Shown: positions 9,395 to 52,210 of the stretch, piece after piece
How positions within the stretch are numbered: the first letter of the stretch is position 1
Layout: every line of letters begins with the position of its first letter
From: Candidatus Hydrogenedens sp.
GTDB lineage: Bacteria > Hydrogenedentota > Hydrogenedentia > Hydrogenedentales > CAITNO01
Reading direction: 5' to 3'
DNA length: 52,520 nt
NCBI GenBank assembly: GCA_012522755.1
Contig: JAAYJV010000065.1
Span: forward strand, 1 to 52,520
The notes under the pieces: model-generated
The model's database searches: none
Told to the model about the DNA's origin: nothing
The model's input: the letters and a program-made list of their open reading frames with translations, nothing else
Translations under genes and position numbers: made by a program

Positions 9395-9682
9395 ATGAAA
9401 GAAGATTCAAGACATATCGCCATCAGCATGACCAAGAGTATCTCAAAGATTGTTGAGAGTGCTACCGGTGAAAGCCTGGATTTTTATATGCTCCTTTGGA
9501 CTGTCCACTGGGCCATTGATTATTACGGCGTGGAAAAGACTCGGAACAAACTTGTTGAGATTCTGCTGGATACTGATTTCAAGGCGCAGGGTCTGGCCAC
9601 ACAATTGAGGGATACGCTCTTTCAGGAGCAGATGGATCAGGACGCTCTGGGCGACTGGTTTGTAAAGGCCATGAAAGGGTAA
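9395..9682 (+). CDS. small hypothetical protein
   Basis: A 95-residue, probably helical cytoplasmic protein that I do not recognise. The ribosome-binding site GGAAG is six bases before the ATG and a consensus TATAAT (9375-9380) lies just upstream, with no clear -35. The sequence has ordinary amino-acid composition, an amphipathic segment near VEKTRNKLVEILLDTDF and no signal peptide or membrane segment. It is convergent with the TPR protein (18-base gap). Confidence 0.6.
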   Translation: MKEDSRHIAISMTKSISKIVESATGESLDFYMLLWTVHWAIDYYGVEKTRNKLVEILLDTDFKAQGLATQLRDTLFQEQMDQDALGDWFVKAMKG

Positions 9683-14644: not shown

Positions 14645-15625
14645 ATGCCTTCTTCTGAAAAAAACAAAGCGTTGCTCCTTCTTCATACCGGTTCTCCGGA
14701 GGCGCCGGAACGCCGTGCTGTAGCCGCTTATCTCCAGCGTTTTCTCCTGGATCCCCATATCCTCGAAATGCCCGCTTTCGTGCGCACTTTACTCGTGCGG
14801 GGCATTATCGTGCCTCTTCGTGCGAAACGCTCCACGGACAAGTACAAGCTTATCTGGACGGATGAAGGCTCGCCTCTGCAAGTCTATACTGATGCCTTCG
14901 CCCGTGAACTGGAGGCGTTGCTCCCTGACTGGATCATAGAGACAGCCAGCGCCTACGGCACTCCTGATGTGACGGAAGGATTGCGGCGCTTGTGCGAAAA
15001 AGGGGTGAATGAAATTATTGTCTTTCCTCTTTTCCCTCATTATGCCGATGCGACCCGGGGCTCTTTGAATTCCATGCTTGACTGCGCACTGAAGAAGATG
15101 AAGGGGCCATTACCGAAGATTATCCGTCTGCCCGTCTTCTATGCCCGCCGGGAATATCTGGATGCCCTGGCTGCTTTGTGTTGTCCGCTTCTGGAAAAGT
15201 TTCAGCCGGATCATGTGCTCTTCAGTTACCACGGTCTGCCCTTGAAACAGGCTCATCGTCCTCCGGGAGATGGCGGAGCGTTGAACTATGAGGAGCAGTG
15301 TGAAAAGAGTACTGATCTTCTGGCCCGGGTGTTTTCTCTTTGTGAGGGCCGATGGTCTCTGGCCTATCAGTCCCGTTTCGGTCGGGGCTGGCTGGAACCT
15401 TCCACCAGAAGTGTCCTCCAGCATCTGGCCCGGTCAGGTGCGGGGCGGGTAGCACTTATTGCCCCTTCTTTCGTGACGGACTGTCTGGAAACGCTGGAAG
15501 AGCTTGATATGGATCTGAAGGAAGTCTTTCTTCAGGCTGGCGGCGAGGAATTACTCCGGATCCCTTCTTTGAATACCCATCCCGCCTGGGTACGGGCTGC
15601 GGCGGATCTTGTCCTCTCTTTTTAG
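14645..15625 (+). CDS. hemH: ferrochelatase
   Basis: Inserts Fe2+ into protoporphyrin (or coproporphyrin) at the end of haem synthesis. The 326 residues include FSYHGLP with the metal-binding histidine (about 196), the YQSRFGRGWLEPST segment and APSFVTDCLETLEE with the conserved glutamate (about 282). No other haem gene is nearby. The stop overlaps the convergent kinase stop (TAG/TAA share 15622-15625), so the two transcripts overlap at their ends. Confidence 0.93.
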   Translation: MPSSEKNKALLLLHTGSPEAPERRAVAAYLQRFLLDPHILEMPAFVRTLLVRGIIVPLRAKRSTDKYKLIWTDEGSPLQVYTDAFARELEALLPDWIIETASAYGTPDVTEGLRRLCEKGVNEIIVFPLFPHYADATRGSLNSMLDCALKKMKGPLPKIIRLPVFYARREYLDALAALCCPLLEKFQPDHVLFSYHGLPLKQAHRPPGDGGALNYEEQCEKSTDLLARVFSLCEGRWSLAYQSRFGRGWLEPSTRSVLQHLARSGAGRVALIAPSFVTDCLETLEELDMDLKEVFLQAGGEELLRIPSLNTHPAWVRAAADLVLSF

Positions 15626-17634
15626 TGGAGATGATCCAGAGCTGCTTCAATGGCTTGCCGTGTACAGGGTACTTCCAGGGCACAACGGAATCCGAGATCG
15701 GGACTTCTGCTTTCAAAAAGCCGGGTTTCACTCTGGTACAGATGCAGTTGCCGGTTGAAGCTTCCGCCGCACAGAGGCATGGATACTCCGAAAGACGGGA
15801 CAGATGATTCTTCCGCTTTGGCTGGGCGTACCCATTCAGAGAGGTTGCCGGCCAGGTCATAACAGCCCGACCAGCTCAGATCTTCGGGGAAACTTTCGAC
15901 AGGAGCGCTTTGCCCGGTTTGAACATTGGCCCCGCCGTCCTTCCATTCATCACCCCAGGGGAAAAAGGCTGAGCCCTTTCCATCGCCATAGGCGGCCCGG
16001 GTCCATTGTTCGCGGGTGGGGAGGAATCGGCCTTTCCAGGCGGCGAAGGCCCGGGCATCAAACCAGGATACATAAGGGACGGGATACTTTTCCCAGCCTT
16101 CGAAATTACCGCCCAGCTCAGCCGGTAAAGACCAGCCTCCGGGAACCTGCTGGCAAAAAGCGGCATACTCGCCTATGGTCACTTCCTGCTGATCCATGAA
16201 AAAACCCGGTACCTGAACGGTGGCACCGTCGATCTGAACAGGGCCGGCGGGTACAAATACCATACCCGGAGGAGAGAGGAGAACAGCCAGATAATGTTGC
16301 AGCGCACTTTCTCCCCGCCTCTGTGCCGTTGCCGGATCGGATCGGGAGAAACTGAGTGCCTCTTCCCACAGGGCATCGCCGTCACTGAGCCATTGGAGTT
16401 GGCTGTTGTTTTTGTCGGGCAGCGACTGAACGGTATTTTTCAAACGGTTGGCGAGGGGCTTGAGGCCTTCAATTCCTTCCTGGCTGCGGACGACCACAGC
16501 TCCGAGGCCGTTTTCCACAGCTGAAGCGTTCTTGCGCTGGTAGCTTTCCAGTGCCCAGAGGGCGGCGCCTGTTCCCAGGAGAACCATCACGATCGCCATA
16601 GCCATCCAAAGCCGGGTTGTATCCGCTTTTCCAGCGGCTTTTTTATAAATCTGTCGGGTCGTATATCTTGTGGGATCTTTGCCCTGCTTCAGAAGTTCAA
16701 GAACAGGTTGCAGAGCCGTGCGCATTTCAGCGGCATTTTTGAAGCGTTTTTCCCGATCCTGATCAATGCAGCGTTTCAACAAATCATCCATAACGGGGGG
16801 GATGTCTTTGAAGGCTTCGGAAACAGGTTTGGGTACGCCCGTGGGTACGGCGCCGGTGAGCATTTCATAGAGCATGATGCCCACACTGTAAATATCGGCC
16901 CGGGCATCCACATCTCTGGTGTTTCTGTATTGTTCGGGCGACATGTAAAAGGGCGTGCCCATGACCACTGAAGCCGAGGTGTTGAAACGGTTGTCCATGA
17001 GCTTTGAGATACCGAAGTCCATGAGCTTGATCTGGTTATCAGGAGTGATCATGACATTTTCAGGTTTGATGTCCCGGTGTATGGTGAATCGGTGGGCATA
17101 TTCCAGAGCAATGCAAAGCTGATCGATGATATACAGCGTCTGTTTCAGGGGGAGGCGCTGTCCTGAAGGAAGTTTTTGCAGGATATCGCGCAGCGAGTTG
17201 CCTTGCACATATTCCATGGAAATAAAAATGCCCCGGCCCGCACTGCCGATATCATGGACGCGGACAATATTGGGATGGGTCAGTTTACGGGTAATGCGTG
17301 CTTCATTCAGAAAGCGGTCCACCACCATCTTTTCCTGAGTAAACTGAGGGAGCAGTGTTTTGAGAGCCAGCTCTTCGCCCAGCACATTATCATGGACTTT
17401 ATAAATGCAGCCCATCCCGCCCCGTCCGATCATGCCCAGAACAGCATAACGATTGTTCACCACCTGGCCCCGGGTAAACTGCAGAGCGTCACTGCTGCTT
17501 TGCTGCGAGGAAACGGAGCCCGGCGGTGGGGAAGGCCGAAAAGAGACACGGGGCAGGGGCGCCTGGCATTGCGTACATGCCTGGGCGTCTATCTGATTTT
17601 GATAAGAGCATTGGGGACACTTTACCGTGGCCAT
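15622..17634 (-). CDS. Hanks-type Ser/Thr kinase fused to an FGE-sulfatase domain
   Basis: 670 residues. An N-terminal zinc ribbon (CPQC at 6-9 and CTQC) is followed by a kinase domain at about 60-330: GRGGMG loop, LALK lysine, HRDIKPENV catalytic loop, DFG and MSPEQ. One membrane span (LWMAMAIVMVLLGTGAALWAL) precedes a C-terminal formylglycine-generating-enzyme-like domain (FVPAGPVQI, LPTREQWTRAAY, FPWGDEW, YDLAGNLSEW, GGSF, LGFRC). The active-site cysteine pair of true FGE is not evident near GGSF, so the domain is probably a sensor or binding module. Ribosome-binding site: GAGGT. Substrates are unknown. Confidence 0.9.
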   Translation of the reverse strand: MATVKCPQCSYQNQIDAQACTQCQAPLPRVSFRPSPPPGSVSSQQSSSDALQFTRGQVVNNRYAVLGMIGRGGMGCIYKVHDNVLGEELALKTLLPQFTQEKMVVDRFLNEARITRKLTHPNIVRVHDIGSAGRGIFISMEYVQGNSLRDILQKLPSGQRLPLKQTLYIIDQLCIALEYAHRFTIHRDIKPENVMITPDNQIKLMDFGISKLMDNRFNTSASVVMGTPFYMSPEQYRNTRDVDARADIYSVGIMLYEMLTGAVPTGVPKPVSEAFKDIPPVMDDLLKRCIDQDREKRFKNAAEMRTALQPVLELLKQGKDPTRYTTRQIYKKAAGKADTTRLWMAMAIVMVLLGTGAALWALESYQRKNASAVENGLGAVVVRSQEGIEGLKPLANRLKNTVQSLPDKNNSQLQWLSDGDALWEEALSFSRSDPATAQRRGESALQHYLAVLLSPPGMVFVPAGPVQIDGATVQVPGFFMDQQEVTIGEYAAFCQQVPGGWSLPAELGGNFEGWEKYPVPYVSWFDARAFAAWKGRFLPTREQWTRAAYGDGKGSAFFPWGDEWKDGGANVQTGQSAPVESFPEDLSWSGCYDLAGNLSEWVRPAKAEESSVPSFGVSMPLCGGSFNRQLHLYQSETRLFESRSPDLGFRCALEVPCTRQAIEAALDHLH

Positions 17635-19414: not shown

Positions 19415-19612
19415 TTTTAAACCACGAAGGGCGCGAAGAGGCATAGCTGCAAGCAAATCATACTTTTTATTTAACCGCGAAAAGCGCAAAAGGACGCGAA
19501 AGGAATGAGAGGAAAAAGCTTATGTCTCCCCGGAGTCTCTTTTGTATCCCAAGACATACCTGCGCCCCTCCCACATCCGTCCGATCCGACGGATCCGACT
19601 GATTCTTCAGAT
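19415..19612 (+). repeat. composite dispersed repeat R1, copy B
   Basis: The 19292-20398 gap has no convincing gene. R1 copy B shows the head module (GCATAGCTGCAAGC, near 19440), a CGCGAAA-rich stretch, the TCTCTTTTGTATCCC segment and the shortest 9-bp array, two units plus a degenerate third (19581-19607). Bases 19613-19975 are AT-rich with nothing recognised. 19976-20266 is described separately. Confidence 0.8.
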
Positions 19613-19975
19613 ACCAGTAATCCCTCGTCATATTCTTCGGCGATTCATATCTGTACTTGTACAATTACGATTATGATTACGAGTGTGTATAAATTGTATT
19701 CTGTACTACAATTAAAACAGGGGTGTTTTATGAGTCTCCTGTGAATTCAGATTGGATCCGCTTTCTGGGAATTTAACAGTATCTGCATCTGATTTTGCCG
19801 GACTGGGGCGAATCCAAATGAAAAAGCGGTATCTTTCGACCAACCACTATTTGGTCATGAAAAAATCCAAGTATATCATTATCAATATGTTATATATTGT
19901 GTTTTTCTGGTAATTCTTTTCTTTTGCCAAGATAGAAGTTTTTTGAAAGGAATTGGAATATTAGTTACTGAAATA

Positions 19976-19984
19976 TGTTATACT
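19976..19984 (+). promoter_or_regulatory. extended -10 promoter-like site
   Basis: TGTTATACT matches the extended -10 consensus TGnTATAAT. The nearest -35-like TTGGAA (19953-19958) is 20 bases away, which is loose. Transcription would begin near 19991. Confidence 0.45.
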
Positions 19985-19990
19985 ATGTAT

Positions 19991-20266
19991 AGACAGTTGA
20001 ATTCTTAAGGTCTTGAGTTGATCTTGTTTCCCTTTTCCGCCTCCTTTCTGGTGCGGCATTTCGGGCACGCCGGGTTCTATGGTGGTCATAGTGAAAATGA
20101 TCAACAGATGTCCAATTACTTTGTTAACCTTTCGTCCTTTCGGGACGTTTTACTGGTAATATAGACGGAATACAAACCGTACATGAGCAGACCCATTCCT
20201 CGCAAGAGCGCGGACCGTGCCTCCCTCCTTCCCTCCCCCGCCATACGGTCCGCGCCAATTTTTTTT
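19991..20266 (+). ncRNA. candidate structured small RNA or leader RNA with anti-SD tracts
   Basis: No ORF of note. Elements in order: GTTGATC (20017-20023) pairs with GATCAAC (20099-20105), enclosing a pyrimidine tract with CCTCCTTTCT at 20040-20049. A CTATG/CATAG hairpin lies at 20077-20091, and a CGTCC/GGACG hairpin followed by TTTT at 20133-20147. A strong terminator closes the region at 20208-20266, and its loop again contains CCTCCTT. It does not match 6S, tmRNA, SRP RNA or a riboswitch that I know. It could be a free sRNA or an attenuator for the gene at 20399. Confidence 0.4.
20208..20266 (+). terminator. Rho-independent terminator with C/T-rich loop
   Basis: A perfect 11-bp stem, GCGCGGACCGT (20208-20218) with ACGGTCCGCGC (20245-20255), is followed by eight T (20259-20266). 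The 26-base loop is almost all pyrimidine and contains an exact CCTCCTT at 20224-20230. It lies 132 bases before the preferred start of the next gene. Confidence 0.85.
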
Positions 20267-20398
20267 GCGTTCTCCCCGTCATAATTTCTACAATGCATTA
20301 CAGATATCTATGCTATCGTGATCAGTAGAGCTATGTCTGCTGGTTTTCGAATGTCAGAAGAAGCAGAGATTGCCGCCCTTTTTCCGGGAGAAAAACAT

Positions 20399-20983
20399 AT
20401 GACTGAAGATCTGGGGTACATTGACTATCGCACCCTTCTGGAGTTGCAGGATCCATACAAGCCTGCTGATGTGATCCGCACCTATCGCAAAAAAATGAAA
20501 CAGCTCATGGTGCTTATCAGCGAAGATACGGAGGCTGATGACCATCGTGACCGTTATCTGCTGCAGATAGCGGAGCTGAATGCGGCTTATTATATTCTGC
20601 GCAATAAAGAGCTGGGCCGGCAATATATTCAGGAACGGGAAGAGCTCCTGGCTCTGGAAACAGAATGGCGTACTCTGGATTCCGATGAACCTTCTTTTGA
20701 TGCCATGCGCCGCCGTTATGATCAGGCATTACGCGCTTTTCTGGCCCGGTATATGGAAGAGTTGATTCTGGAAGCGGGACGGGATCCTGAATGTGTTGAG
20801 CACAGCGGTTGGAGTCCGGCCCATGAGCGTTTTGCCGGCCGTGTGTTGCGCCAGTTCCGTCAGCAGCGTTACCATGAAATCCATGAACGCCTCCCCTATT
20901 ACGATATTACGAAACCTGAGGTGGACTGGGAGGAACGGGCCCGCTTCGCCGCAACGCTCATTTCTCGGGGAGAAGAGTCATGA
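20399..20983 (+). CDS. J-domain-like protein lacking HPD
   Basis: 194 residues from the ATG at 20399, which has GGGAG eight bases upstream. Earlier in-frame starts (GTG 20318, ATG 20333 and 20351) lack one. Residues of about 8-78 follow the J-domain pattern: IDYRTLLELQ (helix I), ADVIRTYRKKMKQL (helix II), AELNAAYYILRNKELGRQYI (helix III and the DPEKRxxYD-like end). The HPD tripeptide is replaced by hydrophobic residues near MVLIS. The rest is charged and helical, with no Zn or C-terminal DnaJ domain. It overlaps the next gene by ATGA, suggesting a functional pair. Classification as a degenerate J protein is inference. Confidence 0.7.
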   Translation: MTEDLGYIDYRTLLELQDPYKPADVIRTYRKKMKQLMVLISEDTEADDHRDRYLLQIAELNAAYYILRNKELGRQYIQEREELLALETEWRTLDSDEPSFDAMRRRYDQALRAFLARYMEELILEAGRDPECVEHSGWSPAHERFAGRVLRQFRQQRYHEIHERLPYYDITKPEVDWEERARFAATLISRGEES

Positions 20984-22050
20984 CGGAAGAAACACGTACA
21001 GAAAAAGTGATCGATGATGCGTTGCTGGATCGTTGTCTCGCTGCGGCCATCGCTACAGGCGATATTGTGAACCTGCGTTTTTTATTCATGCCTGCATCGC
21101 CCTTCAGGCCCGATTCTTCTGAAGACATCAGCCAGTCCAAATATGCCTATCTCTTGCCCAAAGAAGAAAAGGGTGAGATGGATGAGGCACTGCAGTTGGT
21201 ACGTCAGCCGGAAATTTCACGGCTGGTGCGTGCTCAGCTTGCGAAAAAAGGACCGCCTCAGCTTCCCTGGGAATTGTTGCAGAGCCTGGCTGATCAGGCC
21301 TTGAAATGCGGGAAATACACGGCTGCATCCCAAGCCTATGAATTGTTGCGTACACGCCGGCGGATGCAGGAGATTTTTCTTGATCAGGCCGATGCAGCTC
21401 TGGATGGGGCTGCCTTTTATGAGGCGGCTCAGGGCTATACAATCGCTTCGGGGCTGCAATATGATTATGCAGCTTTCCCCGAGGCCTTACCCGCTGTGTT
21501 GAATTATCAGGAAAAAGCGCTGAGTCTCCATAGGGCCTATCCTCCGACAACAGAAGAAAGCGAAACAGACGACAGTGCTTTGTGCCGGTCTATTTTACAG
21601 TTTCTCATGCAGGGTGCCGAATTTCTTCAGCGTCTGGAAGGACGGGACGGGGAGGTGCTGGTCCAATTTACGGCGCAGGTGATTCGTTGCCTGGATCCAC
21701 AATGGGAACACTTTGTGAGCGCTTTTCATGAGAGCCTGGCGATCATCAAAGCCTATGAAACGCTCTTCACGCGCATCAACAGCTATACGCAGGAAGCGCT
21801 GGAAGTGCTTATGGAAGAAATTTTCACGGATGAACAAAAAGAAGAGTTGCGGCGTATCGCTCCTCTCTTTGCCCCCGGTGCTCCTGAAGGTGAAGAGTGG
21901 TGGCTCACCATGCGCACCCTGGCCTATCATCATCCGGGTTCCGTGCTTTTTGTTCGCCGCCAGCGTTTGTCGGCTACGGAAGAAATTCTGATCCCCGAGT
22001 GTCCCCGTGATTCGCAGCTTGCCCGACTCCTGAATCTTGTGGATCCCTGA
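20980..22050 (+). CDS. hypothetical protein paired with the J-like gene
   Basis: 356 residues, soluble, helix-rich, without a signal peptide or membrane span. Segments such as LADQALKCGKYTAASQAYELL and GAAFYEAAQGYTIASGLQ resemble TPR/Sel1-type helical pairs, but no clear repeat period is seen. It is translationally coupled to the upstream J-like gene by an ATGA overlap, which is the best clue to function. The family is not recognised. Confidence 0.7.
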   Translation: MTEETRTEKVIDDALLDRCLAAAIATGDIVNLRFLFMPASPFRPDSSEDISQSKYAYLLPKEEKGEMDEALQLVRQPEISRLVRAQLAKKGPPQLPWELLQSLADQALKCGKYTAASQAYELLRTRRRMQEIFLDQADAALDGAAFYEAAQGYTIASGLQYDYAAFPEALPAVLNYQEKALSLHRAYPPTTEESETDDSALCRSILQFLMQGAEFLQRLEGRDGEVLVQFTAQVIRCLDPQWEHFVSAFHESLAIIKAYETLFTRINSYTQEALEVLMEEIFTDEQKEELRRIAPLFAPGAPEGEEWWLTMRTLAYHHPGSVLFVRRQRLSATEEILIPECPRDSQLARLLNLVDP

Positions 22051-51828: not shown

Positions 51829-51854
51829 GATACAGCTCCTGAGCGGTAAAAAAA

Positions 51855-52210
51855 GAAGCGGGCCTGTAAGCCGGGTTCTGTCCGAAACGCCTGAGCGCCT
51901 CTGAACGGTCATTCATCTGGGACGCATGTCACCATACGCCTCTAGCATCCTACCCGGGACCGGTGCGGGCAACACCATAGGTCCTCTATTTGGACTTGCT
52001 CCGGACGGGGTTTGGCAAGCCGCCATGTCACCATGACGCTGGTGCGCTCTTACCGCACCTTTTCACCATTGCCTCTGAAGAGGCTGTGTATTTTCTGTTC
52101 CACTTTCCGTCGGATCACTCCGCCTTCGCGTTACGAAGCGTCCAGCCCTGTGGAGCCCGGACTTTCCTCGACACAGCCTGAGCCATGCCGCGACCGTTCG
52201 GCCCGCTTAT
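51855..52210 (-). ncRNA. rnpB: RNase P RNA, type A
   Basis: About 356 bases. The P1 stem pairs AAGCGGGCC (52208-52200) with GGCCCGCTT (51864-51856). The universal GAGGAAAGTCCGGGC lies near 52152-52170, and ACAGAACCCGGCTTA lies near the 3' end. A T-run at 51848-51854 follows P1. The RNA makes the catalytic subunit that removes tRNA 5' leaders. Confidence 0.96.

Follow-up and report, generated by a model that had tools for sequence, protein, structure and literature searches.

The window analyzed in this study, 52,520 nucleotides in length, is one whole contig (C28) of the 4.0-Mb draft genome of Candidatus Hydrogenedens sp. Its minus strand carries a bacterial RNase P RNA of class A (51851-52209, 322 bits) and a gene whose product joins a protein kinase to an FGE-sulfatase (formylglycine-generating-like) domain (15622-17634). 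On the plus strand lies the J-like gene (20399-20983), the start of which was placed by an alignment of starts at the ATG at 20399, preceded by the Shine-Dalgarno (SD) sequence GGGAGA; a start at 20318, as in the listed open reading frame (ORF), lies too far upstream for this gene. The J-like gene is overlapped by the gene at 20980-22050, and neither of the two has a Pfam family above the cut-off. Homologues of the J-like gene were found in 54 of the 60 relatives searched, with a protein identity of 60-65% in other genera.

A conserved island upstream of the J-like gene

The first-pass annotation had taken positions 19976-20266, upstream of the J-like gene, for one feature, a possible anti-SD small RNA (sRNA) or leader. 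It had described the stretch as free of ORFs, and indeed no ORF of at least 80 aa starts or ends inside this region. The unity of the region, however, was not borne out. A BLAST search of 19950-20300 against 100 relatives gave an end-to-end alignment in the congener G001 only, with 83% identity; the alignments with the family's other genera were confined to about 20186-20268, with 93-100% identity. We found that the true feature is the 3' third of the region, 20186-20266 on the plus strand (AGCAGACCC..TTTTTTTT), a core of about 80 nt (79-80 nt). Beyond the genus, conservation is lacking in the 5' two thirds, the other hairpins proposed for the region are not conserved, and the whole 277 nt fold with a z-score of only -1.45. 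The suggestion of an anti-SD small RNA is thus well supported for 20186-20266 and not for the 5' two thirds.

Seven homologues of the core were compared, five with the J-like gene adjacent (G000, G001, G003, G004 and G008) and two located elsewhere (G013 and G016); G001 is a congener, and the near-identity of the core extends to further genera within the same Hydrogenedentota family. The identity over the 79-nt core is 100% in G001 and G003, 98.7% in G016 and 97.5% in G013, and the G008 core is 100% identical apart from a single 4-nt deletion in the loop. Against the 97.5-100% identity of the core, the flanks are 16-56% alike overall outside the genus: with gaps counted, 41-53% in the 35 nt 5' of the core, 32-41% in the 165 nt further 5', and 16-37% in the 130 nt 3' of the core. 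Conservation begins abruptly at about 20186. A conserved island so sharply set off from unconserved flanks points clearly to strong purifying selection acting on a short element, which is present in one copy per genome in genera g1, g3 and g4.

The core had no match above the gathering cut-off among 4227 Rfam families, in agreement with the first-pass annotation, which had recognized no RNA family; the only Rfam match in the window was RNase P, and over 19600-20420 the best match (E = 1.5) was located outside the core. The exact core was absent from IMG/VR, and a mobile-element or phage origin was rejected. A peptide was also rejected as the product, as the short frame beginning with GTG at 20217 lacks an SD; moreover, no frame stays intact across the 4-nt loop deletion in G008, indicating that the element is non-coding. 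A loose pattern search of the genome contigs returned mostly chance matches.

The 79-nt piece folds at -22.1 kcal/mol (z = -4.5), and consists of an unpaired 5' segment, a 12-bp stem, a 24-nt open loop and a run of eight T residues, in that order. The 5' segment (20188-20207, plus strand; CAGACCCATTCCTCGCAAGA) is conserved, with one substitution in six genomes. The terminator hairpin (20208-20255, plus strand), recovered by both the fold and a hairpin scan, has the stem GCGCGGACCGUG/UACGGUCCGCGC, made of 11 Watson-Crick pairs and one G-U pair, and is followed by the conserved U-tract of an intrinsic terminator, T8, read directly at 20259-20266 on the plus strand. Its C/U-rich loop (20220-20243, plus strand; CCTCCCTCCTTCCCTCCCCCGCCA, or CCUCCCUCCUUCCCUCCCCCGCCA as RNA) is nearly all C and U, is wholly unpaired in the fold, and contains CCTCCTT at 20224-20230. 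The perfect terminator stem with a CCTCCTT loop described previously was thereby confirmed, with the G-U pair in addition. No other stem of at least 11 bp in the window both encloses 3-40 nt and precedes T6, and no such hairpin arose when the window was shuffled 40 times under a first-order Markov model. The relatives' cores adopt the same fold; since the stem is invariant among close homologues, covariation speaks neither for nor against it.

Upstream motifs and the length of the RNA

Two motif pairs upstream of the core keep their spacing among relatives, and either could be a candidate promoter. The proximal pair, GTTAAC-N17-CGTTTT (20123-20151, plus strand), has a conserved spacing in a six-genome alignment and reads GTCAAC-N17-CGTTnT in relatives, about 40-65 nt before the core. 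The distal pair, GGAATAT-N15-GTT (19955-19979, plus strand), is a candidate promoter or regulatory site about 230-265 nt 5' of the core, and its spacing is conserved in six of six genomes. It is followed on its 3' side by GACAGTTGAAT (19992-20002), found in five of the six; these two motifs lie about 190-265 nt upstream of the sRNA, and the sequence around them has diverged. The extended -10 reported earlier is indeed present at 19976 (TGTTATACT), where it overlaps the distal pair, but no -35 passed the consensus scan. We also noticed a hairpin, CGTCC-TTTCG-GGACG, at 20133-20147 before TTTT, which in the congener has the form CGTTC-TTCGC-GAACG with a compensated pair; none was seen in other genera.

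A rival explanation, which follows the first-pass annotation, takes the conserved 80 nt as the 3' terminus of an RNA of about 277 nt, transcribed from the extended -10 at 19976, in which only the terminator domain is functional and the 5' portion can vary freely. The similar upstream distances of GGAATAT-N15-GTT and GACAGTTGAAT in five to six genomes are consistent with this explanation, as is the retention of TGTTATACT in the congener. However, the middle is unconserved between genera (32-48% identity), conservation starts only at 20186, and the whole folds no better than most shuffles, and we consider a long RNA rather unlikely; a single 277-nt structured RNA was rejected for its fold and its unconserved middle. 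The abrupt start of conservation instead favours a short RNA, and a free-standing gene would yield a predicted regulatory RNA of about 80-115 nt, with the length set by the position of its 5' end.

The anti-SD loop and its predicted action

The loop heptamer CCTCCTT equals seven letters of the anti-SD in the 16S rRNA 3' end, GGATCACCTCCTTTCT. As the draft assembly itself contains no 16S gene, this end was read in eight genomes of the phylum, including the sRNA-bearing G016. The heptamer is kept in seven of seven homologues, and in five of these the J-like gene is still the neighbour, so that the comparison of loops proposed by the first-pass annotation came out in favour of conservation; it survives both the 4-nt loop deletion in G008 and several loop substitutions in G004. 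The pyrimidine tract that had been matched to the 16S end, CCTCCTTTCT at 20041-20050, is present and gives a longer match, but the congener G001 reads CTTCCGTACC at this place. The tract lies outside the sRNA, was rejected as a part of it, and appears to be a chance match, or at least one that is not conserved.

SD-like sequences precede plausible starts of many genes in the window, for example AAGGAG before 29947, AAGGAGAAC before 29036 and GGGAGA before 20399. In a simple energy test, the loop paired with start regions of the window at a median of -10.0 kcal/mol and with interior regions at -9.4 kcal/mol, a weak separation. A dedicated target recognized by long complementarity was rejected, as long loop-complement sites were no commoner than those of a reversed control pattern. 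The two best start-site candidates were likewise rejected, their pairing not being kept in relatives: in G000 this was a gene resembling a prepilin peptidase (-26.6 kcal/mol), in G003 one resembling oppB (-35.6 kcal/mol). None of 68 genomes of the phylum, a set that came out the same in order-level and phylum-level searches, gave an Hfq match in a search that matched 5 of 14 control genomes. The lack of a detectable Hfq fits with Hfq-independent sRNAs having C-rich loops, such as sX13 of Xanthomonas.

Taken together, these results indicate that 20186-20266 is a real, new and lineage-specific RNA element. To judge from its sequence, it is conserved and non-coding, with changing neighbours, a predicted intrinsic terminator and an anti-SD loop; it is very probably an sRNA, and an anti-SD action of this predicted sRNA is probable. 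The hypothesis that we prefer, and consider fairly likely, is that it acts in trans on ribosome-binding sites independently of Hfq. The terminator hairpin would present its unpaired 24-nt C/U loop, which would pair with G-rich or GGAGG-type sequences around the start codons of several mRNAs, block the entry of ribosomes and repress translation without Hfq. We infer transcription, pairing and repression rather than read them from the sequence. Short SD pairing with many mRNAs is possible, as is a role as a protein sponge.

As a sponge, the C-rich strand would titrate Rho, as a rut-like site, or a cold-shock or KH-type RNA-binding protein. The near-total C and U content of the loop is compatible with this role, as is the result of the target search, which found no single conserved mRNA target; furthermore, related elements in sister genera (see below) keep a C-rich tract, CCTCCCCCTCCCC, in the unpaired 5' part and not in the loop. 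We nevertheless regard a sponge as improbable, because the anti-SD heptamer is kept exactly although C-richness alone would suffice, and the 24 nt of a loop that a 12-bp stem closes offer little length for the primary site of Rho. A conserved DNA element, namely an i-motif/G-quadruplex or a protein-binding palindrome, might account for the near-perfect identity and for the complementary strand of the loop, GGGGGAGGGAAGGAGGGAGG, but is very improbable in view of the strand asymmetry, with T8 only 3' of the hairpin on the plus strand, and of the conservation of the unpaired 5' segment as well.

The gene neighbourhood bears on the remaining explanation. G000, G001, G003, G008 and G004 carry the element upstream of the J-like gene and on its strand. 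In G013 and G016, it is flanked by a peptidase M23-bactofilin operon on one side and a converging GFO/IDH/MocA oxidoreductase gene on the other, and the J-like gene of these genomes has no such element. A separate candidate promoter for the J-like gene, which is not a part of the sRNA, was recognized by alignment at 20265-20294 on the plus strand (TTGCGT-N18-TACAAT), beginning inside the T-run. The form TTGCTT/TTGCGT-N18-TACAAT is kept in G000, G003 and G008, where the J-like gene adjoins, and TACAAT is absent in G013 and G016, where it is not adjacent. An attenuator or leader in which the terminator decides read-through into the J-like gene, as the first-pass annotation had allowed, finds support in the same-strand adjacency in five of seven genomes, but is already largely refuted and hardly to be expected, given the separation of the two in G013 and G016, the J-like gene's own conserved promoter after the terminator, and a 12-bp stem plus T8 with no alternative antiterminator pairing in the fold. 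The predicted sRNA gene is thus to be seen as free-standing.

Related elements and known systems

A model built on this sRNA (R1) also matched C/U-loop terminator hairpins in G046, G038, G034, G005 and genus g7. These hairpins (L067, L070 and L072 in g7; L068 in G046; L071 in G038; L078 in G034; L082 in G005) differ in stem and place, and perhaps represent a wider RNA class. A second model, R2, was built from g7 and g5 sequences only, and its search found 13 genomes, all of the same family, with one match each; in G000, G001, G003, G008, G013 and G016, the match was exactly this sRNA (E of 3e-4 to 5e-3). The R2 stem has one compensated pair among seven sequences. The R1 and R2 models find each other's members, the contexts differ, and 49 of 2000 structure-preserving shuffles gave R1-R2 alignments as good, which makes homology between this sRNA and the g2/g5/g6/g7 element suggestive.

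In g2 and g5, the R2 element lies directly 3' of the stop codon of a gene for a protein of about 95 aa that ends in WF..AMK, and the tract CCTCCCCCTCCCC with the strong hairpin terminator is a possible 3'-UTR-derived sRNA. This protein family, which has no Pfam match, includes L272, L273 and L275 and a copy in the window (9395-9682, plus strand), behind which no such 3' element was found.

In staphylococci, the UCCC-motif sRNAs use C-rich unpaired motifs to block ribosome-binding sites. The likeness of the present element to them lies in the motif and in the predicted blocking of ribosome-binding sites; the element has no Rfam match. RepG (HPnc5490) of Helicobacter pylori, which is short, highly conserved and intergenic, pairs through the C/U-rich loop of its terminator hairpin (PMC8295292). 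The likeness drawn here is one of design only, as phylum and context differ; the target of RepG is a homopolymeric G-repeat in a single leader, whereas the loop described here holds the exact anti-SD heptamer. The Xanthomonas sX13 has C-rich loops and, independently of Hfq, represses mRNAs that carry G-rich motifs close to their start codons (PMC3771888); it has three stems with 4C/5C loop motifs, in contrast to the one hairpin of the predicted RNA. The alpha-r14/NfeR1 and other CCUCCUCCC sRNAs of Rhizobiales display an ultraconserved anti-SD within the open loops of their stable hairpins (PMC10746234, PMC3927594), and the anti-SD loops of NfeR1 occlude ribosome-binding sites (PMC10746234). 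These sRNAs have three or more hairpins with divergent stems, whereas our element has one hairpin with CCUCCCUCCUUCCCUCCCCC and an invariant stem; the mark of alpha-r14 and cuckoo RNAs, several hairpins each with CCUCCUCCC, is absent from it. The CcsR/cuckoo RNAs of Rhodobacter are cotranscribed behind the small-protein gene ccaF1 (CIN1 locus) and end in an intrinsic terminator (PMC10253847). The C-rich elements just after the ~95-aa ORF in sister genera recall this arrangement, as a likeness only; the sRNA of the window is free-standing, and the ~95-aa protein has no Pfam match or DUF1127 assignment. The precedents of sX13, RepG and NfeR1 make pairing of the terminator loop with G-rich starts the likeliest mechanism, and the element is a new family of a functional kind already known elsewhere.

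A broader proposal, that Hydrogenedentota use lineage-specific terminator-loop RNAs, namely this sRNA and the possibly homologous C-rich 3'-UTR terminator of the small-protein gene in sister genera, as general anti-SD regulators, is doubtful. If true, it would mean a "decoy anti-SD" system reduced to one hairpin, which might compete with 16S rRNA for many SDs at once and not for a single target. Our literature search on the RNA biology of this phylum found no paper, and to the very little that is on record the present element adds a candidate regulatory RNA that Rfam lacks. Its invariance over 80 nt recommends it as a strong probe for metatranscriptomes. It would add a lineage without detectable Hfq to Helicobacter, Xanthomonas and staphylococci, in which sRNAs with C/U-rich terminator loops or C-rich loops occur, and would support the view that such loops arise repeatedly where strong GC pairing dispenses with a chaperone.
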